Shown piece by piece: positions 5,184 to 22,882 of a DNA stretch of 23,052 nucleotides (its first letter is position 1; each line of letters begins with the position of its first letter). The stretch lies in the IMG/VR virus record IMGVR_UViG_3300044641_002836, positions 1-23,052 of that record; one strand, 5' to 3'. The translations under genes were made by a program, and so were the position numbers. This DNA comes from a virus. The notes under the pieces were generated by a model, which was not told the origin of the DNA, searched no databases, and was given only the letters and a program-made list of their open reading frames with translations.

Positions 5184-5498
5184 TTGGATAACAGGGAAAA
5201 CCCTCCCTGGGCTTGGAGATATGATGCAAAGTGTCGTGGCGAAGACACTGAAATCTTTTTTCCACCAAGAGACAAAGCACTATACAAGCCAATTGCAGAC
5301 AAAGCTAAGGCGATATGTTGGGGCAAAGACGGTAAGTCTGCCTGCCCTGTTCGCAAGCAATGTTTAAGTGAAGCTGTAAATAACGACGAACTTCATGGAA
5401 TTTTTGGGGGCATGTCCCACAGAGAACGTAATGCTATGAAACGTAAGTATGAAAAACAAGGCCTTACCCTGGATGAATGGTTAGAAAAGGAAAAATAA
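5184..5498 (+). CDS. whiB: WhiB-like iron-sulfur transcription factor
   Basis: 104 residues from a TTG start with AAGGAG five bases upstream, directly after the preceding stop. The family layout is present: C17 near the N-terminus, C45, C54 and C60 in a CPVRKQCL context, then the turn GIFGGMSHRER (residues 72-82) and a basic C-terminal tail. WhiB proteins carry a [4Fe-4S] cluster and bind the housekeeping sigma factor; phage members such as WhiBTM4 redirect host transcription. The family is restricted to actinobacteria and their phages, which points to the host. The spacing C45-x8-C54 is longer than the usual C-x2-C, because of a WGKDGKSA insertion. Confidence 0.92.
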   Translation: MDNRENPPWAWRYDAKCRGEDTEIFFPPRDKALYKPIADKAKAICWGKDGKSACPVRKQCLSEAVNNDELHGIFGGMSHRERNAMKRKYEKQGLTLDEWLEKEK

Positions 5499-11951: not shown

Positions 11952-12134
11952 ATGGAATACGCTACTAAGTCTGTATACTCTGGGTCAAAGTTCTGTCCAA
12001 AATGCGATGAGCTAATGACTCCCCTCGAGGTTCTTTACTCTGGGGATACTGGGCTATGTGTAGAGTGCCGAAATCTTATGTATAAAAAACACGCTAAGTC
12101 TGCAATGGGAGGTGGATCTCGTGGCGAAAGGTAG
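11952..12134 (+). CDS. Small zinc-ribbon protein
   Basis: 60 residues, with ATG directly after the thioredoxin stop. CPKC and CVEC pairs (residues 15-18 and 36-39) form a zinc ribbon separated by a short LMTPLEVLYSGDTGL segment. The C-terminus is basic and Gly-rich. Such proteins usually bind nucleic acid or act as small adaptors. It overlaps the next gene by 14 bases, and its last codons carry that gene's GGGAGGTGG ribosome site. Confidence 0.75.
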   Translation: MEYATKSVYSGSKFCPKCDELMTPLEVLYSGDTGLCVECRNLMYKKHAKSAMGGGSRGER

Positions 12135-12441
12135 TGCTCCTAAACCCCCTAAACCTAAAGCACCTCCTAGAGCAATAGGCGGTAGCAAAGCTTCTCAAAC
12201 ACCAAAAGCAAAGGCTAGATTAGCTCCCGGCGGTGCAACCACTGGGTCTATGAGCAGCGGCTGGTCAAAACAAGCCCGTCGAGCCCCTTGGGTATCTAAA
12301 CAATCTATGGGTATTAATCCTGGTTCTCCCGCAGCTATATCTAAATACCGACATAGTGAGAAATTTGTAGCTCGAAGCAAAAAGGTCATAAGGCCCAGAA
12401 TTGCCAAAGTTCGCAAAAAGTTTAAGGCGCCAGATCAATAA
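12121..12441 (+). CDS. Basic low-complexity protein
   Basis: 106 residues from GTG 12121, preferred over GTG 12112 because GGGAGGTGG (12108-12116) is then correctly spaced and the product begins MAKG like several neighbours. It is rich in Lys, Arg, Pro, Ala, Ser and Gly; the first 40 residues are a KPPKPKAPP-type repeat and the C-terminus is KKVIRPRIAKVRKKF. It is probably disordered and able to bind nucleic acid. First of the run of basic unknowns. No family recognised. Confidence 0.7.
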   Translation: MAKGSAPKPPKPKAPPRAIGGSKASQTPKAKARLAPGGATTGSMSSGWSKQARRAPWVSKQSMGINPGSPAAISKYRHSEKFVARSKKVIRPRIAKVRKKFKAPDQ

Positions 12442-12461
12442 GAATAGGGAAAAATAGAACC

Positions 12462-12815
12462 ATGAAAACAGCAGTAGCCTCAGCAGATGATGACGGCCCA
12501 AAGAAGAAGTTTGGTGTTGGCCTGCCTAAAGCGCCTAGCAAAGGCAGTTATGGCATTAAACCCGATAAAAATGACGGTGAATACTTTGGCCGAGTTATTA
12601 GAGAAAAAGAAAAGCCTAAAAAAGCTTATGCTGGTGCGGGGGCTAATCCGGATAATCCCAAAGGCCCTAAAGTCAATAACAAAATGAAGGTTGTCCCTTT
12701 AAAGGAAAAAAGTTTAAAAGATCACGAAATGCAAAAAGCTAAGGCAAAAGAAGCAGTTAAGAATAAGAAAAAAAGCTCCGCAAATACGAAGCCAAAAAGA
12801 AAAGGAAATAAATAA
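12462..12815 (+). CDS. Lysine-rich disordered protein
   Basis: 117 residues, of which 30 are Lys. Composition (Lys, Pro, Gly, Asn, Ala) and the lack of hydrophobic clusters predict disorder; the C-terminus is almost purely basic (KPKRKGNK). AGGGA lies 12 bases before ATG 12462. The next gene starts at the base after its stop. Possible roles are DNA condensation or binding to host nucleic acid, by composition only. No homologue recognised. Confidence 0.65.
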   Translation: MKTAVASADDDGPKKKFGVGLPKAPSKGSYGIKPDKNDGEYFGRVIREKEKPKKAYAGAGANPDNPKGPKVNNKMKVVPLKEKSLKDHEMQKAKAKEAVKNKKKSSANTKPKRKGNK

Positions 12816-13187
12816 ATGGCAAAAAAAGACGCATACAAAGGTACTGATTATCTTTCTGGCGTACCAAAGCGCGAGCAAGCTGCGCGTAAAAAGGCAGCTG
12901 CAGCAAAAGACGCAAAAAAGCGTGAAGCACACCCAAAGTTAGAAAAAGTTAAGGACAAGGTTAAAGGAACCATTAACGAGGCACGAAAAGTTCTTCCTAG
13001 AAAAGTAGTTGTTGAAGATAGCAAAGAGTTCGTTGAGCGCCAACGTGGTATGGGTGGCGGACCTAAGACTCGTGACCACTATGTTGATGCAAAAAGAAAA
13101 GCAGGTCAAAAAGTAAAGCCTCGTGTTGAGAAGTCCAAAGGTTGGGGCAAAAATGCACCTATTAAAAAGAGAAAGATGGATGAATAA
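12816..13187 (+). CDS. Lysine-rich basic protein
   Basis: 123 residues with 28 Lys and 11 Arg. The N-terminal half is an Ala/Lys/Arg/Glu-rich helix (QAARKKAAAAKDAKKREAH) that could form a long single helix; the C-terminal half has a KVLPRKVVVEDSKEFVERQR segment and a basic end. The pattern recalls histone-H1-like bacterial tails, though no domain is certain. It is packed directly between two other basic unknowns. Confidence 0.68.
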   Translation: MAKKDAYKGTDYLSGVPKREQAARKKAAAAKDAKKREAHPKLEKVKDKVKGTINEARKVLPRKVVVEDSKEFVERQRGMGGGPKTRDHYVDAKRKAGQKVKPRVEKSKGWGKNAPIKKRKMDE

Positions 13188-13189
13188 AA

Positions 13190-13543
13190 ATGAGACCACC
13201 ACGTCGCGACGGTAAAAGAAAACCTTTTAGGTTTGGTAAAGATAAAAAAGGAAGTGCGGACACTATTGCTGCAATACAAGCCATGGCAAAGTCAGGCGCA
13301 CTTCGTGATGCAGGGCCAAAGCCTACTGATGACGAAAGACGTCAAAATCATTACGACCGTGAAGACGTTAAGTATGAGGCTGACTATGGCTATTCAGGTC
13401 GCTCTGGATCTGGCGAAAGGGTAGATAGAGGAACAGCTCTACGTACCGCAGCAAAGAAATTAGACAAGACCATTGAGAAACAAAAAACAGATCCTACTTA
13501 CAATAGTGGAGTTCGTTCAGCAACTGAATGGGTGAAAAAATAA
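13190..13543 (+). CDS. Basic hypothetical protein
   Basis: 117 residues from ATG 13190. The N-terminus is strongly basic (RPPRRDGKRKPFRFGKDKKG); a short helix with DTIAAIQAMAKSGAL follows, then a charged, Tyr-containing and Gly-rich stretch, and a C-terminal helix. The stop overlaps the next ATG as TAATG. The family is unknown. The short hydrophobic helix makes it the most likely of this group to have a small folded core. Confidence 0.7.
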   Translation: MRPPRRDGKRKPFRFGKDKKGSADTIAAIQAMAKSGALRDAGPKPTDDERRQNHYDREDVKYEADYGYSGRSGSGERVDRGTALRTAAKKLDKTIEKQKTDPTYNSGVRSATEWVKK

Positions 13544-13815
13544 TGGCTACTAACGAATCACGCTCACTTAATAAGTCTATGGACGAGGGCGCAACAGACG
13601 GCAAGTACCGCAAAGTTCGTCCTAACACAACTGTTGCTCCTGGCACAGGTGACGAAATCATGCTTGCAAACCGTCGTGGCTTAAATCCTTATTGGAACTA
13701 TGACTTCATCGACTCTGAGTCACCAACAAAAGTAAACCCACTTAAGGCAGAAGCTGCTTTAGGTCGCCGCCCTATGATAGATAAGACTTATAACCAAACT
13801 CTTCCTACGGACTAG
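13543..13815 (+). CDS. Hypothetical protein
   Basis: 91 residues from ATG 13543 (TAATG overlap); an in-frame ATG at 13528 lies inside the preceding gene and is less likely. Less basic than its neighbours, with Asn, Thr, Tyr and Pro spread along the length and an NRRGLNPYWNYDFID segment. No domain recognised; possibly an extended virion-associated protein. It is separated from the next gene by 3 bases. Confidence 0.7.
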   Translation: MATNESRSLNKSMDEGATDGKYRKVRPNTTVAPGTGDEIMLANRRGLNPYWNYDFIDSESPTKVNPLKAEAALGRRPMIDKTYNQTLPTD

Positions 13816-15429: not shown

Positions 15430-16014
15430 ATGGGAGTACCAATTTTAGGTCAAGGCGGTCTGCCTGCTGATCAAAATGGAGAGTACGTAGAGGTCCGCGA
15501 TGAAGGGCCTAAGATTAGGCTACTCTACTGTTATAACTGTAAATCAATCGAAGAGCTGCCTGATTTTGAGGGCAACTCAGACGATGATATTTTCTTAGAG
15601 CTAGCTGTTGAAAAGCATAATAGTGCTGGAATACCTCACACAGGTTTTCTATCTCGTATCGGCGTGAAGCTCTGGGCACAAGAAAAGTTTAGAAAAGAAA
15701 TTATAAAAAATATCCGAAACCGCGTAGGTGGAGGATTAGCTGATATTGATCCAGACTACTACACTACTAAAGCTACTTTTTACGAAGATGCTATGAAGTG
15801 TTATTCGGATCATCTCCGCCCTAAAGGTGGATGCCCTGACTGGAGAGATTCAAAGAAGCGGCTTATTCCTAAGACTCATGCTGAACGTAAGGAAGCAGGA
15901 CTTCCTATGCCAGCACAGTCCGCAGGTACCGACGTATTTCTTTGTGACTTTTGTCCAGTAAAAACTCACGTAGTTACGCAACAGCGTAAAAAAACCGGAA
16001 TGTACAACGAATAG
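15430..16014 (+). CDS. Hypothetical protein with two CxxC pairs
   Basis: 194 residues from ATG 15430 after GAGAGGAAT. A CYNC pair near residues 34-37 and a CDFC pair near 173-176, plus single cysteines between (CY, GGCPDW), suggest a metal site formed by distant parts. The middle contains a helical region with SRIGVKLWAQEKFRKEIIKN and a TKATFYEDAMKCYSDHLRP segment. It looks well folded, unlike the basic genes upstream. From memory similar proteins occur in other actinophages without a known role. Confidence 0.78.
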   Translation: MGVPILGQGGLPADQNGEYVEVRDEGPKIRLLYCYNCKSIEELPDFEGNSDDDIFLELAVEKHNSAGIPHTGFLSRIGVKLWAQEKFRKEIIKNIRNRVGGGLADIDPDYYTTKATFYEDAMKCYSDHLRPKGGCPDWRDSKKRLIPKTHAERKEAGLPMPAQSAGTDVFLCDFCPVKTHVVTQQRKKTGMYNE

Positions 16015-16023
16015 GAATAAAAA

Positions 16024-16266
16024 ATGGTTGAAGAAAAAAAGACTTTTGTTATTGGATTTGCAGTACTTATAGACCTAGAAGGAAATGTATATTTAGAAAC
16101 TAACCCAGAAGCATTTTCTATGGGAGTAGAACGACCTGCAACTTTGCGAGAAGTGCGACGTTACACGTCTGAGTTATTAATGGATCTTAACGCTCAGTCT
16201 GCAGCAGAATACACTCTTGTAAAGCTAGCTTCAGCAAATCAAAAAGCTTCTGCTGAAACAGAGTAA
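16024..16266 (+). CDS. Small hypothetical protein
   Basis: 80 residues from ATG 16024. A beta-hairpin-like start (FVIGFAVLIDLEGNVYLET) is followed by the helical RPATLREVRRYTSELLMDL segment. It is compact, with no cysteines and no membrane segment. The two-part pattern appears in small conserved actinophage proteins, but I cannot assign a function. It lies three bases before the 51-codon gene. Confidence 0.75.
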   Translation: MVEEKKTFVIGFAVLIDLEGNVYLETNPEAFSMGVERPATLREVRRYTSELLMDLNAQSAAEYTLVKLASANQKASAETE

Positions 16267-16437: not shown

Positions 16438-17355
16438 ATGGAGAGATTTTCAGAAGTAAGCCTATCCCCTAGCGATACCTCCTACTTCAGCAAGCCTGAA
16501 ACAGAGCTTGACCCTAGATTATTTATAGGTACTCATCTTCGTCCTTGGGTGCGTAATGGAATACAGAGACTTCTTTACGAGCACCTAAAAGTGCGATACA
16601 TGAATGCAGAGTCTTGGACTACGGTCTGGTTAGCTGGATCCGGCGTATCTTATCAGTGGTCTGCAACACGAGACCCTGCAGATTTAGATTGTTTAGTGGG
16701 CGTTGATTACACAACCTTTAGAAAATACAACAATGACTATCTAGGCTTGTCTAACGATGAGATCGCTCATATGTTTAATAAAGACTTTAATACTGATTTA
16801 ATGCCTAACACCAGAAATTGGGAAGGGTATGAACTCACGTACTATGTCAATCCTCAGTCTGATATACGAGACATCAACCCATATGCCGCGTATAACTTAA
16901 CCTCAGACTCTTGGACAGTAGAGCCTAACCGTAATCCTAGATCTAAACCTGACCCAAGAGCTTGGGAAAACAAAGCAGAAAAAGATTATGAAACAGCTCT
17001 CGAATTAGTTAATAGGTATGCTCAAGCTTTAAACGAAGTTCAAGCTACCACTAATCCAGCGTATAGATTAAACGCTCAAAGACGTTTAGAGGATGTTGTA
17101 GATCAAGCCGTTGCGTTCTATAACAGTATTCATGAGGGTAGAAAAGTTGCCTTTAGCAGTATAGGTTCTGGCTACGAAGACTTTAATAATTATCGCTGGC
17201 AAGCTGGAAAGCAATCTGGCGCAATACACGCGTTGAAAGCAATAAAAGATTACAGAGACAGCGCAAAAGAAGAAAAAGAATTAGAAACCTACGGAATGGT
17301 TTTACCTGACACGGAAACCTTGATTAGGAGAGCCGCTACACATCGGAGACCATAA
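16438..17355 (+). CDS. Nucleotidyltransferase-like protein
   Basis: 305 residues from ATG 16438. The Pol-beta-type signature is visible: WLAGSGVSYQW (G67-S68) followed by DPADLDCLVGVDY with D82 and D84, and D90 nearby. This is the hG[GS]x(n)DxD pattern of nucleotidyltransferases. A third carboxylate cannot be placed by eye. The C-terminal half is helical with an ALNEVQATTNPAYRL region. It begins a tightly packed cassette: the HAD-like gene starts at the base after its stop. It may transfer a nucleotide to a protein, RNA or small molecule; the substrate is unknown. Confidence 0.7.
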   Translation: MERFSEVSLSPSDTSYFSKPETELDPRLFIGTHLRPWVRNGIQRLLYEHLKVRYMNAESWTTVWLAGSGVSYQWSATRDPADLDCLVGVDYTTFRKYNNDYLGLSNDEIAHMFNKDFNTDLMPNTRNWEGYELTYYVNPQSDIRDINPYAAYNLTSDSWTVEPNRNPRSKPDPRAWENKAEKDYETALELVNRYAQALNEVQATTNPAYRLNAQRRLEDVVDQAVAFYNSIHEGRKVAFSSIGSGYEDFNNYRWQAGKQSGAIHALKAIKDYRDSAKEEKELETYGMVLPDTETLIRRAATHRRP

Positions 17356-17820
17356 ATGGCAACAGCACTTATTTCACTAGACGGCGTACTTAGAACAGAA
17401 ACTGGCGACCCAATACACGCTGGAATAAAGCTATTTCGCGTAATGAACGAGCACTATCGCGTTGTTCTAGCTACTGATGGGACAATTGAAGAAGCCGAGC
17501 ATTGGTGCAGAGCTAATTTAATCTTAGGTTACGCAGATTTGTATGACAATAGGTTAGCTTTTGAGGGGCAAGATTTACGTATGCGCCATTTAGCTTACGC
17601 TAGATCTCAAGGTGAGGTTGAACTATTTATAGACTGTGATGTAGATAGGTCTGCAGCAGCCATGAATGCTGGAGTACCTACTATGTTATTCTTATCCCCT
17701 ACGTTTGTTCGTAGAAAGCGCCCTGTTCGCCCGTGGGAAGAGCTTAAAGAAGAAGTAAAAGCTCAAAGAGAATTGAGTATTCAAATGATGACCGACAGCG
17801 CTTTAAGAAGGTGGGAATGA
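17356..17820 (+). CDS. HAD-like protein with altered motif I
   Basis: 154 residues. A HAD fold is suggested by motif I (LISLDGVL, residues 5-12), motif II-like VVLATDG (T40) and motif IV (LFIDCDVDRSAAAMNAGVPT; D93, D95, D97). In motif I the position of the nucleophilic Asp is Ser7, while the second Asp (D9) is kept, so ordinary phosphatase chemistry is unlikely. It may act as a binding or regulatory subunit, or use another mechanism. It touches the gene before it and overlaps the gene after it by 4 bases. Confidence 0.72.
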   Translation: MATALISLDGVLRTETGDPIHAGIKLFRVMNEHYRVVLATDGTIEEAEHWCRANLILGYADLYDNRLAFEGQDLRMRHLAYARSQGEVELFIDCDVDRSAAAMNAGVPTMLFLSPTFVRRKRPVRPWEELKEEVKAQRELSIQMMTDSALRRWE

Positions 17821-19304
17821 TGGATCTAGTATTTCTAGGTGGAGAAGTCCCATCACACCGTAAGCTTTTGATCGATGCTGGAGTCAAGCACATTGGAATT
17901 AACTATTGGCGCCTGGTAAAGCGAGGCCTACCAAAGACCAAAGAATACCTTTTGTCTGAAAAGTACCCAGATGATGTACGTATCTACGTAGATGGGGGCG
18001 GATATCAGGTTAATAAAGAGTCTCTATCTGTGGGAGAACTCGAAGAATACGCGGGAGAGTATCAAGATTGGGTAGTTACGAATGAAGATAAAATCTTTAT
18101 GGCTACAGAAATCGATGCCAGAGCCCTTGGACCAGCTTGGATCAATGAGCAACGAAAATCTTTTTGGGAAGACTTTGGAACTGACCGATTTATGGCAGTT
18201 TGGAATAGTGCCTTAGGACATCCAGCCTTAATGAGCCTGTCTCAAGGATACGAGCATGTGGCTATCCTTGGAGAAACTTTAGATACCGATTTAACGCTCT
18301 CAGCACGCACACGAGCATTGAAGTCACAGTTTGACACTTCCTTCCACGGATTAGCTTGTGCTAACCCTGCAAATCTGCGACAGGTGCCTCTGAGCACCGC
18401 TAGCACCCTATCCTGGCTCTCGCCTATGATGCGTGGAGAAACCATAGTCTGGAACGGCTCTCGCCTGGTTAGATATCAAAAGAAGATGAAAGATCAAGCC
18501 CGACCAAGATACAAAGCTATCATCGAGAAGGCCGGATTAGATTTTGATTTGATTATGGAAGACGATAGCAAGGAAGTTACTAAATTAGCGATTTGGTCAT
18601 ACCTACAGCTAGAGGCATCTTTAAATAAGAATATGGTCCCACTATTATCTGATAACAGTGTGTACAAGGACGACCCAGGTTCTGCGGAAACAGGGGGTGC
18701 GGAACCTGATAATAGACCCCTAGAAGTGCGGAAAGATTCTGCCGTAATTAGGGGAAGAACCCCTGAAGAAATGCGTACTTTACCAGTATTTTCTGTAAGT
18801 ACAAAATCAATAATTGAAAGAGATTCTTCTGGAAGAGACGTTATACAAGAAGCGCCAGTCTTATCTACAAGCGGTGTTTCGCTTCGTCAATGTAACACAT
18901 GTTTCGTTGCCGCAAATTGTCCTGCAATGAAACCTGATGCAGCTTGCGCTTTTAACCTTCCACTTGAGGTTAAGACTAAAGAACAATTAAAGGCTCTTTT
19001 AAACGCAGTTATTGAGATGCAGGGCTCTAGAGTCGCTTTTGCACGATTTGCGGAAGAGTTAAATGGTGGTTACCCTGACCCAAATACCGGACAGGAGATA
19101 GACAGATTGTTTAAAATCATCAAGCAATTAAAAGAACTTGAAGAAAATAAAGAGTTTGTTCGAATGACTGTAGAGCGTCAAACCTCTGGTGGTGTAATGT
19201 CAGCTTTGTTCGGAGATCGTGCTAGTACCTTAAAACAGCTACCAAATGATGGGCTTTCTGAGGAAGATACCACTAGAATACTCTCTGATAATCTAGAAAA
19301 TTAA
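17817..19304 (+). CDS. tRNA-guanine transglycosylase/DpdA-like barrel with C-terminal Cys cluster
   Basis: 495 residues from ATG 17817 (ATGA overlap; ATG 17820 is also possible). The N-terminal ~220 residues resemble a TGT TIM barrel: YVDGGGYQV (59-65) matches the TGT TDSGGYQV base-binding motif, and TEIDA (97-101), YEHVAILGE and FHGLACANP (176-184) fall in the expected order. The usual second Asp (TGT D280) is not obvious; the matching area reads STASTLSWLSP. After a polar linker (about 270-350) comes C359-x2-C362-x5-C368-x8-C377, a likely metal or Fe-S site, then a helical tail. DpdA enzymes put 7-deazaguanine bases into phage DNA. The assignment is by motif only. Confidence 0.6.
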   Translation: MMDLVFLGGEVPSHRKLLIDAGVKHIGINYWRLVKRGLPKTKEYLLSEKYPDDVRIYVDGGGYQVNKESLSVGELEEYAGEYQDWVVTNEDKIFMATEIDARALGPAWINEQRKSFWEDFGTDRFMAVWNSALGHPALMSLSQGYEHVAILGETLDTDLTLSARTRALKSQFDTSFHGLACANPANLRQVPLSTASTLSWLSPMMRGETIVWNGSRLVRYQKKMKDQARPRYKAIIEKAGLDFDLIMEDDSKEVTKLAIWSYLQLEASLNKNMVPLLSDNSVYKDDPGSAETGGAEPDNRPLEVRKDSAVIRGRTPEEMRTLPVFSVSTKSIIERDSSGRDVIQEAPVLSTSGVSLRQCNTCFVAANCPAMKPDAACAFNLPLEVKTKEQLKALLNAVIEMQGSRVAFARFAEELNGGYPDPNTGQEIDRLFKIIKQLKELEENKEFVRMTVERQTSGGVMSALFGDRASTLKQLPNDGLSEEDTTRILSDNLEN

Positions 19305-19307
19305 CCT

Positions 19308-19330
19308 GCGCTGTTATCTGATAACAGTGC
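19308..19330 (+). promoter_or_regulatory. Palindrome upstream of the ribonucleotide reductase gene
   Basis: CTGTTATCTGATAACAG (19311-19327) is a perfect 17-bp palindrome around a central T, extended by GCG/TGC to a 9-bp stem with a 5-base loop in RNA. It lies 3 bases after the preceding stop and 25 bases before the reductase GTG. The core TTATCTGATAACAGTG (19314-19329) occurs a second time inside the preceding gene (18645-18660). It could be an operator or a processing hairpin. No ribozyme or B12 riboswitch structure was recognised. Confidence 0.55.
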
Positions 19331-19354
19331 TATTACCCTTTGATTGGAGTCTGT

Positions 19355-21373
19355 GTGTTTTCGTTTCATTTAAGTGAAGATTTTGTCGCCTCGTATAAGG
19401 ATAAGAAAGTACCTTGGGGGTACACAGATGCCGGAGGAAACTCGGTAGGCGAAATTACTTTTATGAGAACTTACTCACGATTAAAAGAGGATGGCACTAA
19501 AGAAACTTGGGTAGATGTTTGCCAGCGAGTAATCGAGGGCATGTATTCTATTCAGAAGGATCACTGTAAAACTAATCGACTTCCCTGGAATGGTCAGCAA
19601 GCCCAGGCTTCAGCTCAAGAAGCTTTTGACCGTATGTTCAATCTTAAGTGGACTCCGCCAGGCCGAGGACTTTGGATGATGGGAACTCCTTTCGTAATGG
19701 AAGGCAAGAACTCAGCCGCTCTACAGAACTGTGCTTTTGTAAGCACCTCAGATATGAGCAAGAACGACCCATCCACACCGTTTACATTTTTGATGGAAGC
19801 GTCAATGCTAGGTGTCGGGGTAGGGTTTGATACCAAGGGTGTCAATAAAGAATTCACAATTTATAAGCCAGAAGGTGAGCAAGCATATGTCGTCCCAGAT
19901 ACCAGAGAAGGGTGGGTTGAGTCAGTCTCCCTTGTCATCAATGCCTACTTACGACCAGATTCGAAGACTCCAGTATTTGATTACAAAGAGATCCGTCCAG
20001 CAGGTACGCCAATCAAAACGTTCGGCGGAACCGCAGCTGGATCCGAACCACTTGAGAGACTCCACACGGCCCTTACAAATCTCTTTAAGGGACGAGCCGG
20101 AGAGAAAATAAGTACAAAGGACATAGTAGATATCGCAAACCTTATTGGCGTATGCGTAGTATCTGGAAACGTCCGCCGCTCAGCAGAACTTGCCTTGGGC
20201 CAACCTGACGATAAAGACTTTGTAGACTTAAAGAATTCATCAGTATTCCCTGAAAGAAACTCCTATGACCCAGATAAGCCGGGTTGGGGATGGATGTCAA
20301 ATAACTCTTTAGAGGCAACCGTAGGTATGGATTACAGCCCATTCGTAGAGGCTATTGCCCTAAACGGTGAGCCTGGATTTATCTGGTTAGATGTTTCAAG
20401 GAAGTACGGCCGTCTGGTCGATCCGGAGAATAATAAAGATTACCGAGCTGCAGGGTACAACCCATGTGCGGAGCAGACTTTGGAGTCTTACGAATGTTGT
20501 ACTCTCGTTGAGACCTATATCAACCGCCATACAGACATTAAAGACTATATGCGTACACTCAAATTTGCCTATCTCTACGCAAAGACAGTCACACTCATCC
20601 CTACTCACTGGCCAAACACTAACGCAATCATGCAGCGTAACCGCCGTATCGGTTGTTCAGCCTCTGGATTAGCAGCCTTTGCTGATACTCAGGGATTGCC
20701 TAAGTTACGTGAGTGGTTAGACACTGGCTACGCTGAAGTCCAGAAGTGGGACAAGATGTACTCAGAATGGCTATGTATCAGAGAGTCAATCAAAACTACA
20801 AGTATTAAGCCTTCCGGCACTGTGTCAATCCTGGCAGGAGAAACTCCTGGAGTTCACTGGCCTATCGGTGGTCAATACATCCTACGCTCAATTAGATTCG
20901 CTAAGTCTGACCCAATGTTAAAACTCTTTACAAAGGCAAAGTACCTAGTCGAGGACTCTGTCACGGATCCAAACAACACTTCAGTCGTTTACATCCCAAT
21001 TAAATCGGTTCCGGTACGCCCAGAGCAATCTGTATCTATTTTTGAGAAGGCTAACTTGGCAGCTTTAGCCCAAGCATACTGGGCGGATAATTCAGTCTCA
21101 GTTACTCTTTCGTTTAATACCGATACGGAGTCACAGCATATAGGTACGATCCTACACATGTACGAAGGACGTCTGAAGACCGTCTCATTCTTACCAAAGG
21201 GTAACGACGTATATCCTCAGCAACCATACACTGAAATTAGCGAAGCAGAGTATAATAATTACGTCGGTAAACTTAAGCCAATAGACCTATCGCCTATCTA
21301 CAACGGAAATGCTTTAGATGCTGTTGGTGAGGAATACTGTACAACTGATATATGTGAAATCAAGTTTGCTTAA
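19355..21373 (+). CDS. nrdJ: Adenosylcobalamin-dependent ribonucleoside-triphosphate reductase (class II, monomeric)
   Basis: 672 residues from GTG 19355, chosen because GGAG (19346-19349) sits five bases before it; an in-frame TTG at 19340 precedes that site. Catalytic residues of the Lactobacillus RTPR family are present: C126 (LQNC) and C382 as the redox pair, C371 and E373 in NPCAEQ as radical site, and the C-terminal CTTDIC pair (C662, C667) that passes electrons in. It reduces ribonucleotides (NTPs in this family) to deoxy forms using vitamin B12, without oxygen demand or a second subunit. Thioredoxin at 11688 is a candidate reductant. Codons ending in C seem more frequent than in nearby genes. 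Confidence 0.95.
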   Translation: MFSFHLSEDFVASYKDKKVPWGYTDAGGNSVGEITFMRTYSRLKEDGTKETWVDVCQRVIEGMYSIQKDHCKTNRLPWNGQQAQASAQEAFDRMFNLKWTPPGRGLWMMGTPFVMEGKNSAALQNCAFVSTSDMSKNDPSTPFTFLMEASMLGVGVGFDTKGVNKEFTIYKPEGEQAYVVPDTREGWVESVSLVINAYLRPDSKTPVFDYKEIRPAGTPIKTFGGTAAGSEPLERLHTALTNLFKGRAGEKISTKDIVDIANLIGVCVVSGNVRRSAELALGQPDDKDFVDLKNSSVFPERNSYDPDKPGWGWMSNNSLEATVGMDYSPFVEAIALNGEPGFIWLDVSRKYGRLVDPENNKDYRAAGYNPCAEQTLESYECCTLVETYINRHTDIKDYMRTLKFAYLYAKTVTLIPTHWPNTNAIMQRNRRIGCSASGLAAFADTQGLPKLREWLDTGYAEVQKWDKMYSEWLCIRESIKTTSIKPSGTVSILAGETPGVHWPIGGQYILRSIRFAKSDPMLKLFTKAKYLVEDSVTDPNNTSVVYIPIKSVPVRPEQSVSIFEKANLAALAQAYWADNSVSVTLSFNTDTESQHIGTILHMYEGRLKTVSFLPKGNDVYPQQPYTEISEAEYNNYVGKLKPIDLSPIYNGNALDAVGEEYCTTDICEIKFA

Positions 21374-22111: not shown

Positions 22112-22356
22112 AGTTTTACCTCTACGGTAGCTGTAAAGACTTTGCTTTCTTCATCAGCTGTCCAGCGGATAGATTTACGGTTAACCATTTGAGCACACCA
22201 ACGCTTTGCTGGCGCAACGCTTGTCCAGGCAGAATGAATAACTGATTCCTCAGGGACTGCATCTGAGTCTCCAGTTATCTCAACTGTTGCCAGCCAAGCT
22301 CCGCTCTTCTCTTGATTTTTTGCGAGCTTGAATGAGTAATTGAGCTTTGATCGCAT
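22108..22356 (-). CDS. Small hypothetical protein, beta-rich
   Basis: 82 residues on the minus strand from ATG at 22356, with AAGGAAG six bases upstream. Alternating patterns (WLATVEITGD, VFTATVEVKL) suggest a small beta-sheet protein with a helix around SVIHSAWTSVAPAKRWCAQM. No known motif. It overlaps the glycosylase-like gene by 77 bases and the 44-codon gene by 4, as expected in a compact early-type operon. Confidence 0.7.
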   Translation of the reverse strand: MRSKLNYSFKLAKNQEKSGAWLATVEITGDSDAVPEESVIHSAWTSVAPAKRWCAQMVNRKSIRWTADEESKVFTATVEVKL

Positions 22357-22801
22357 TTGATTCTTCCTTTGTTAGTAGTATTCCTTGTTCTTTTGGCCAT
22401 AGATATGGCAAGTCATCCGGAACATCAAAGTTGTAGTGATGAGGATCTTTTCTGTTCAGGTTTGATTGATGACTCCTGTGGAAATCAATATTACCCCACC
22501 ACCAAGGTCGCTTGAATGCGGTTGGTTCTAAGGTGTTCATGATGTCCTGTGTTTGTGTTGAGACCGTGTCTTGATAGCCACGATCTTTCCATTCTTCGCA
22601 TATACGAAGATTGTATACGCAGAGAAGACCTTCGTGTCCTCTCCACATTACAGCTGCTGGATGGTTTCTCCATCCAAGTGTCATACCTAGATTAGCTTTT
22701 AATATTTGTAGGCTTTCTACACGTTGCTTACCTAGGCGTTTATCGTCTAATGCCCTAGCCGTCTTTATTTCGTCGGCGTAAGGCAGGAATGTATTCACCA
22801 T
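22280..22801 (-). CDS. MSMEG_6728-like protein (predicted pyrimidine-dimer DNA glycosylase)
   Basis: 173 residues on the minus strand from ATG at 22801, with AAGGAAAG upstream; a longer frame from 22864 would begin inside the hairpin and is unlikely. The family pattern is clear: MVNTFLPYADE at the N-terminus, ARALDDKRLGKQRVESLQIL, GWRNHPAAVMWRGHE, and HRSHQSNLNRKDPHHY with DVPDDLPYLWP at the end. Family members are annotated as pyrimidine-dimer DNA glycosylase-like, common in actinobacteria and phages. Repair of UV damage is a plausible role for a phage in sunlit water. The activity is inferred from annotation. Confidence 0.87.
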   Translation of the reverse strand: MVNTFLPYADEIKTARALDDKRLGKQRVESLQILKANLGMTLGWRNHPAAVMWRGHEGLLCVYNLRICEEWKDRGYQDTVSTQTQDIMNTLEPTAFKRPWWWGNIDFHRSHQSNLNRKDPHHYNFDVPDDLPYLWPKEQGILLTKEESNAIKAQLLIQARKKSREERSLAGNS

Positions 22802-22845
22802 GATATACTTTCCTTGAACTCCTTCCTCTACTAGGGTTCTTAAGT

Positions 22846-22882
22846 CCCCTAGGCAATACGGCACGGCTGCATTGCCTAGGGG
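22846..22882 (-). terminator. 12-bp hairpin between two minus-strand genes
   Basis: CCCCTAGGCAAT (22846-22857) and ATTGCCTAGGGG (22871-22882) form a perfect 12-bp stem around a 13-base loop. It lies between the partial gene ending at 22900 and the glycosylase-like gene starting at 22801. No T-run follows on either strand. A nearby CTAGGG (22831-22836) could pair with CCCTAG (22847-22852) as a weaker alternative. It may be a U-poor terminator or a leader structure. Confidence 0.6.

Follow-up and report, generated by a model that had tools for sequence, protein, structure and literature searches.

The locus considered here raises the question of what a virus does with three adjacent genes, the last of which resembles the base-exchanging enzymes DpdA and tRNA-guanine transglycosylase (TGT). 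It lies in the IMG/VR virus record IMGVR_UViG_3300044641_002836, whose 23,052 bases were analyzed as a whole (the window), and comprises, all on the + strand, NT (16438..17355), a protein of 305 amino acids (aa) with a probable nucleotidyltransferase fold, a helical C-terminal domain, and conserved G67-S68, D82-x-D84, and E132; a small HAD-like protein of 154 aa (17356..17820) with the motif-I nucleophile Asp missing and the fold unconfirmed; and DPD (17817..19304; 495 aa), a DpdA/TGT-like barrel combined with a Cys-cluster domain. All three open reading frames (ORFs) are present at these coordinates in the ORF list. The sequence-only reading of this cassette suggested a base-modification pathway; it had recognized a real, widely conserved unit, but the usual base-modification conclusion drawn from it is probably wrong. 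We tentatively propose, with a probability of roughly 0.4, that DPD descends from a DpdA that gave up base exchange and was exapted for DNA binding, with paired sites at its own gene as the putative targets, choosing where phage DNA is handled.

The relation of DPD to DpdA and TGT is supported by both structure and profile comparisons. In the AlphaFold2 model (mean pLDDT 74.5), the barrel domain, residues 1-272 (17820..18635, +), is predicted with a mean pLDDT of about 90, and the C-terminal part with low values. When the barrel was compared with known structures by VIA-align, all 50 rows listed were TGT or DpdA (Z 17.3-17.9), including DpdA 7ui4 (Z 17.6). DPD matches PHROG_887, “queuine tRNA-ribosyltransferase,” with E=4e-55, and aligns with the profile of the 9g-type DpdA with probability 97.8 and E 6.8e-13. 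Other searches were less informative: Foldseek ranked other barrels over TGT, with nothing at E<=0.001, and re-ranking by the aligner put TGT first; in the TGT Pfam family, DPD was below detection; and none of the three cassette profiles (DPD, NT, HAD) had a significant match when searched by sequence against the PDB. Thus, as judged from the predicted model and the profiles, the fold of DPD is that of DpdA/TGT, as had been suggested from the sequence.

Retention of the fold is not accompanied by retention of the active site. Asp D215 of the 9g DpdA (CDSSSW) aligns to S195 of DPD (18402-18404, +), located in the barrel domain; in TGT enzymes, the equivalent Asp is the nucleophile. At this position, 162 distinct DPD sequences have Ser (138), Thr (12), Ala (10), or a gap (2), and hence Asp in none of the 160 scored. 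The first Asp, that of the D[ST]G motif, is present in the window as D58 of the barrel (17991-17993, +) within the string DGGGYQV, which had been taken as a signature of base exchange; among 160 distinct homologues, it is Asp in 86 and replaced in 74. Base exchange as deduced from DGGGYQV was rejected, neither catalytic Asp being kept across the DPD family. Other positions of the barrel are nearly invariant, namely H176, opposite the conserved His of DpdA (159 out of 160), and E97 (160 out of 161), which closes a barrel strand and precedes the Asp aligned with 9g D114 by two positions. The absence of the nucleophile in 160 out of 160 sequences, together with the loss of the first Asp in 74 out of 160, makes base exchange by DPD, and a base-modification pathway built on its barrel, unlikely as far as the alignments can tell.

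The substrate side was considered as well. The sequence-only reading had seen no genes for preQ0 synthesis, and this held in a wider sample: QueC and PTPS/QueD were each found in none of 21 related records (94-113 kb, of unstated completeness), the search covering these two genes but neither FolE nor QueE, while the same searches were positive in 12 (QueC) and nine (PTPS) out of 14 control genomes. A preQ0 pathway of the virus itself was rejected on this basis. Active base modification would then require that DPD place a 7-deazaguanine or a different base in the DNA of the phage or the tRNA of the host, using preQ0 supplied by the host. The DpdA fold and the invariant His agree with such activity, and, according to a passage of PMC6884629, other phages have singleton DpdA genes and none for making preQ0; given the missing nucleophile, the frequently lost first Asp, and the failure to find QueC or PTPS, we consider this explanation highly improbable.

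Compared with the DpdA preQ0 insertase of Enterobacteria phage 9g (7ui4), DPD shares the barrel fold, profile homology, and the conserved His, but has no nucleophile Asp, does not keep the first Asp, carries an extra Cys domain, and comes from a group of records in which QueC and PTPS were not found. With tRNA-guanine transglycosylases (1iq8, 2ash, the Zymomonas TGT), it has the fold in common (Z 17.3-17.9), but the nucleophile is lost and the four-Cys cluster is in a separate C-terminal domain. Eukaryotic QTRT2 is, like DPD, a TGT-fold protein without the nucleophile; unlike DPD, it is known as the accessory partner subunit of an active TGT.

A possible target of DPD is suggested by two palindromes of 17 bp each. 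Copy 1 (18642..18658, CTATTATCTGATAACAG), with one arm mismatch, is inside DPD, in the linker between the barrel and the Cys domain, where it encodes LLSDNS; copy 2 (19311..19327, CTGTTATCTGATAACAG), perfect and with an odd centre, is six bases past the DPD stop. Neither is assigned a strand, and the spacing from copy 1 to copy 2 is 669 bp. With up to two mismatches allowed, the 13-base core has no further site in the window, and one out of 100 shuffles equalled this number of matches. Of 28 records, 18 contain the exact 11-base core, at a total of 25 places, 24 of them at DPD and the exception at position 33163 of one record (G022); the reversed control pattern of the core occurred once in each of three records.

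Comparisons between genomes show that the two places are related to each other. In many relatives, the linker site is matched by one that coincides with the stop or closely follows it. A string of 12 or more bases is common to the linker and stop windows in 58% of 141 distinct DPD genes, compared with 0.02% of 9,887 control windows; when genes of the Streptomyces and Terracoccus types are set aside, the linker and stop of the same genome share, in the remaining 135 genes, on average 12.2 bases, and those taken from different genomes 10.7 (highest of 20 shuffles, 10.93). Exactly LSDNS is read by 73 out of 140 linkers, and 63 of these 73 use site-keeping codons only, against 0.57 expected from the codon use of the same genes; unlike the linker codons, those of other conserved motifs (DPN, C[DN]TC) vary. 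The same 7-base core is present in both copies in 75 out of 141 genes (shuffled mean 44.8, maximum 53, 1000 shuffles), and in 38 genomes with rare cores, the two are identical in 16 (shuffled mean 0.97, maximum 5, 1000 shuffles); as the sequences share descent, the shuffles overstate independence and these values are not strict probabilities, a caution to be added to the objections gathered below. Some of the matching core pairs are inverted, which points to a DNA rather than an RNA signal. Taken together, these comparisons indicate that the paired sites, newly reported in this analysis, are constrained at the DNA level and covary between phages. In the open-access literature surveyed, in which the paired sites were not a search target, we saw no description of the cassette or of these sites.

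In phages of the Streptomyces type, the same two places carry a different common string, which is GAGTAACTAC in BRock, GiJojo, and L208, and AGTAACTACAT in L212; no shared string was seen at these places in L210, and L207, L209, and L211 could not be scored. The linker and stop match by 11 bases in Nonomuraea and by 10 bases in Herbidospora; like the Streptomyces-type strings, these are single cases and weak on their own. In all these types, as in Saccharothrix and Terracoccus, the compared windows were placed by their distance from the stop.

The main rival to recognition of these sites by DPD is that they form a pair of operators, bound by a phage repressor or activator and serving an internal promoter and the downstream gene, the role of DPD, NT, and the HAD-like protein being unrelated to them. 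The sites are indeed palindromic DNA with some copies mutually inverted, and a promoter-like match at 18620-18648 coincides in part with the linker site; however, promoter-like matches are no commoner than in shuffled sequence (two found, mean 2.0), the site core hardly occurs outside DPD in the roughly 100-kb records, and several Streptomyces-type phages keep a shared string at the same two places despite a different downstream gene. On balance, this explanation seems to us somewhat unlikely. The same geometry could also mark an exchange module, with the repeats as recombination boundaries for swapping or deleting the segment made of the linker and the Cys domain, which in many lineages is flanked by both copies, often matching within a genome. 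Here, spacings such as 650, 658, and 671 bp are not divisible by three and inverted pairs occur, so that in-frame excision is not the property being kept; moreover, conservation in DPD is highest in the Cys domain, and no empty allele was seen, though no systematic search for one was made. We therefore regard an exchange module as distinctly improbable.

If recognition by DPD is accepted as the working interpretation, DPD would bind DNA via its barrel and Cys domain, and the palindromes in and behind its gene would be its targets. The likeliest purpose would be the start of packaging, in the manner of a small terminase (TerS), and otherwise autoregulation. The packaging role would fit the TerS-like Cys domain and the precedent of P22 pac. 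The C-terminal Cys domain (18876..19301, +) contains the four-Cys cluster that had been noticed in the sequence (C358, C361, C367, C376; 18891-18947), these residues being kept in all scored DPD sequences, and appears distantly related to the C-terminus of TIN2-type TerS: hhalign aligns 140 columns with probability 71 and E 3.6e-5, TIN2 TerS matches PHROG_887 with E 0.0018, and for the TerS of Tsukamurella and Gordonia phages tblastn gives E 0.2. The TerS-like genes of these phages adjoin TerL. The TIN2/Gordonia TerS (PHROG_6902) thus shares with DPD the distant Cys domain and a layout of about 270 aa plus a Cys domain, but differs in having an N-terminus that is not detectably a TGT barrel (a hidden one was looked for in TIN2-type TerS and not found), in adjoining TerL, and in having no paired palindromes in the six genes tested. 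Comparison of NT with TerS gave nothing. The TerS-like protein of Rhodococcus phage ReqiDocB7 (L304:152-1548) is annotated as two ORFs, perhaps because of a frameshift in the Cys region.

As for P22, the passages of PMC9611059 that deal with its packaging describe pac as a single asymmetric 22-bp sequence inside the TerS gene. Judged by these passages, pac is like site 1 of DPD in being a short recognition site within the gene of a packaging protein (for DPD, the predicted role), but the DPD sites are a pair of palindromes that covary and are in most cases separated by 600-672 bp. The string TTATCTGA in the pac sequence quoted there is also the middle of the DPD palindromes, possibly by chance. 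The most specific version of the proposal, in which DPD would be a small terminase proper, that is, a former DpdA with a TerS-type Cys domain recognizing a bipartite palindromic packaging site, placed inside and immediately behind its own gene, that co-evolved with this gene, appears to us quite unlikely.

Several observations weigh against the proposed DNA-recognition role, in its general or its packaging form. Both the link between DPD and the palindromes and the function itself are what we infer. The two cores differ in 22 out of the 38 rare-core genomes, some of the freshwater members have a weak second copy or none, the exact core is missing in 10 out of 28 records, and Saccharothrix and Terracoccus have no notable shared string at the two places. 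Six TIN2-type TerS genes and the Cys gene of a Bacteroides phage have no site pair, the longest shared string being nine bases. In this phage, BS162P1 (L003:6857-8489), a barrel gene is followed by a separate Cys-domain gene, as in a split form of DPD, and the barrel keeps both catalytic Asp residues (TDSGAF, VDSVTW); hence, the Cys domain is also found next to a DpdA that appears to be active. The relation of DPD to TerS is distant and limited to the C-terminal domain, and the TerS label itself rests on gene position; at the E<=1 threshold, PHROG_6902 matches six out of 21 records weakly (E 3.8e-4 to 0.0068), all six matches falling inside DPD, and three out of 14 control genomes match too. 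DPD is not beside TerL: in the 20 records where both NT and TerL were placed, the distance between them on the record is 25 kb or more. A TerS gene adjoining TerL is not strictly required for the TerS role. The canonical TerS PF05119 was found in none of the 21 records, a result that does not extend to other TerS types, and no TerS was assigned from six TerL neighbourhoods, two of them apparently lying on the strand opposite to TerL. Contigs end at varied distances from the site and are uninformative on fixed genome ends.

Of the three cassette proteins, only NT retains its catalytic residues. G67, S68, D82, and D84 are kept in all 144 scored sequences and E132 in 147 out of 147, although a few members have an internal stop in the matched NT stretch (L018, L020, L021, L022, G020). 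In the NT model (pLDDT 87), the core (residues 26-156) is similar to the nucleotidyltransferases 1ylq (Z 6.7) and HI0073/1no5 (Z 6.5), a moderate similarity, with Z under 8. The top VIA-align rows for NT are helical proteins aligned on its C-terminal part, with Z up to 9.5, such matches being produced by common arrangements. Foldseek against the PDB gave nothing at E<=0.001; at the same threshold, 11 viral models match NT, one of them named nucleotidyl transferase (E 8.8e-9), one amidoligase, one LETM1-like, and the remaining ones uncharacterised. In Pfam, 13 out of 18 members weakly match DUF6932 (best E 0.0034). NT has the GS and DxD motifs and, as far as the model tells, the core in common with MNT-type nucleotidyltransferases (1ylq, HI0073/1no5), but differs in its own helical C-terminal domain, the moderate structural similarity, and the weak Pfam match. 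The nucleotidyltransferase fold, already suggested for the first gene from its sequence, is supported by these motifs and by the moderate structural matches, and NT should still be catalytic, transferring a nucleotide to some acceptor.

The HAD-like protein had been described as lacking its nucleophile, which agrees with the larger sample: in 152 distinct sequences, the motif-I nucleophile position is Ser in 72, Ala in 44, and Asp in only six. The HAD fold as such did not gain support, with no meaningful profile match in 19 HAD-like members and no hhalign match with E. coli GmhB. The protein would probably be a non-catalytic partner.

Another alternative is a pathway directed at tRNA, in which NT would modify tRNA ends and the dead TGT-like barrel would hold the tRNA. 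This would agree with the TGT fold of DPD, with the moderate similarity of the NT core to HI0073, and with the 26-33 tRNA genes of three Streptomyces-type records; on the other hand, among the 18 other records searched, 13 have one to nine tRNA genes and five have none, the window has none either, and the paired DNA sites are left unexplained, so that a tRNA pathway is, in our estimate, very unlikely. Streptomyces phage GiJojo (L002, L299), in which the cassette is present, has a large tRNA array and genes for a Ro-like RNA-binding protein, an RNA ligase, and a CobT-like protein.

Whether the three genes form a unit was assessed in relatives. A scan of IMG/VR viral contigs with DPD yielded 42 loci; in the profile scans, the best 80 of at least 557 DPD candidates and 80 of 523 NT candidates were kept; and the Streptomyces-type query contributed 80 of 115 loci. 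In profile searches with all three proteins, NT, the HAD-like protein, and DPD were found together in 272 out of 285 loci, all of which had been chosen via a DPD or NT match, with repeat visits to one contig included and the window's own copy excluded. Out of the 13 incomplete loci, nine run off the contig end (L185, L211, L233, L240, L244, L250, L259, L273, L274); Terracoccus (L214 and L310, whose sequences are apparently identical) and Saccharothrix (L313) have flanks of sufficient length, yet no NT was found there; and L314 (Streptomyces sp.) has a DPD fragment only. The NT profile matches 20 of the 21 related records. Thus, the co-occurrence of the three genes, proposed as a conserved unit from the window, is not due to chance, and the three-gene block is common to many viruses of actinobacteria.

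Among the loci listed with positions, the order NT-HAD-DPD on a single strand is kept and the spacing is variable; BRock and GiJojo have one additional gene between HAD and DPD. In the window, NT ends at 17355 directly before the HAD-like start at 17356, and DPD starts at ATG 17817 or ATG 17820 (the ORF list has GTG 17811), the former, if used, overlapping the HAD-like stop by 4 bases; the tight packing described from the sequence is therefore correct for the window and not universal in relatives. The unit may exceed three genes, since an upstream gene of 194 aa with CxxC motifs (15430..16014, +) has an intact relative in 257 out of 282 loci and also stands beside cassettes without NT; it is a possible fourth member. 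A possible fifth is an upstream gene of 80 aa (16024..16266, +), which the first IMG/VR scan shows at 40 of its 42 loci.

Directly 3′ of the second palindrome, the window has an ORF for a ribonucleotide reductase of class II (B12) type (19340-21373, +; RNR_Alpha, E 2e-31; RNR-II insertion domain, E 7e-13), a gene that follows DPD in most freshwater relatives among the loci listed. A pyrimidine dimer DNA glycosylase (22280-22864, −; PF03013, E 2.8e-18) is on the strand opposite to the cassette, and a series of short low-complexity ORFs, rich in Lys and Pro, is located 5′ of it (12112-13815, +). The ORF at 5184-5498 (+) has what we take to be a WhiB-like Cys pattern, in keeping with an actinobacterial host. 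PADLOC gave zero matches in the window, and Rfam nothing at the gathering score.

The label “queuine tRNA-ribosyltransferase,” carried by PHROG_887 and by the BRock record, suggests 7-deazaguanine chemistry; as a large set of proteins under the PHROG_887 label has no nucleophile, such annotations need an active-site check. The cassette is also present in BRock and GiJojo, two Streptomyces phages that have been isolated, which makes DNA recognition by DPD testable. If it is true, a base-editing enzyme would have become a DNA-recognition or packaging protein whose own gene carries its target.

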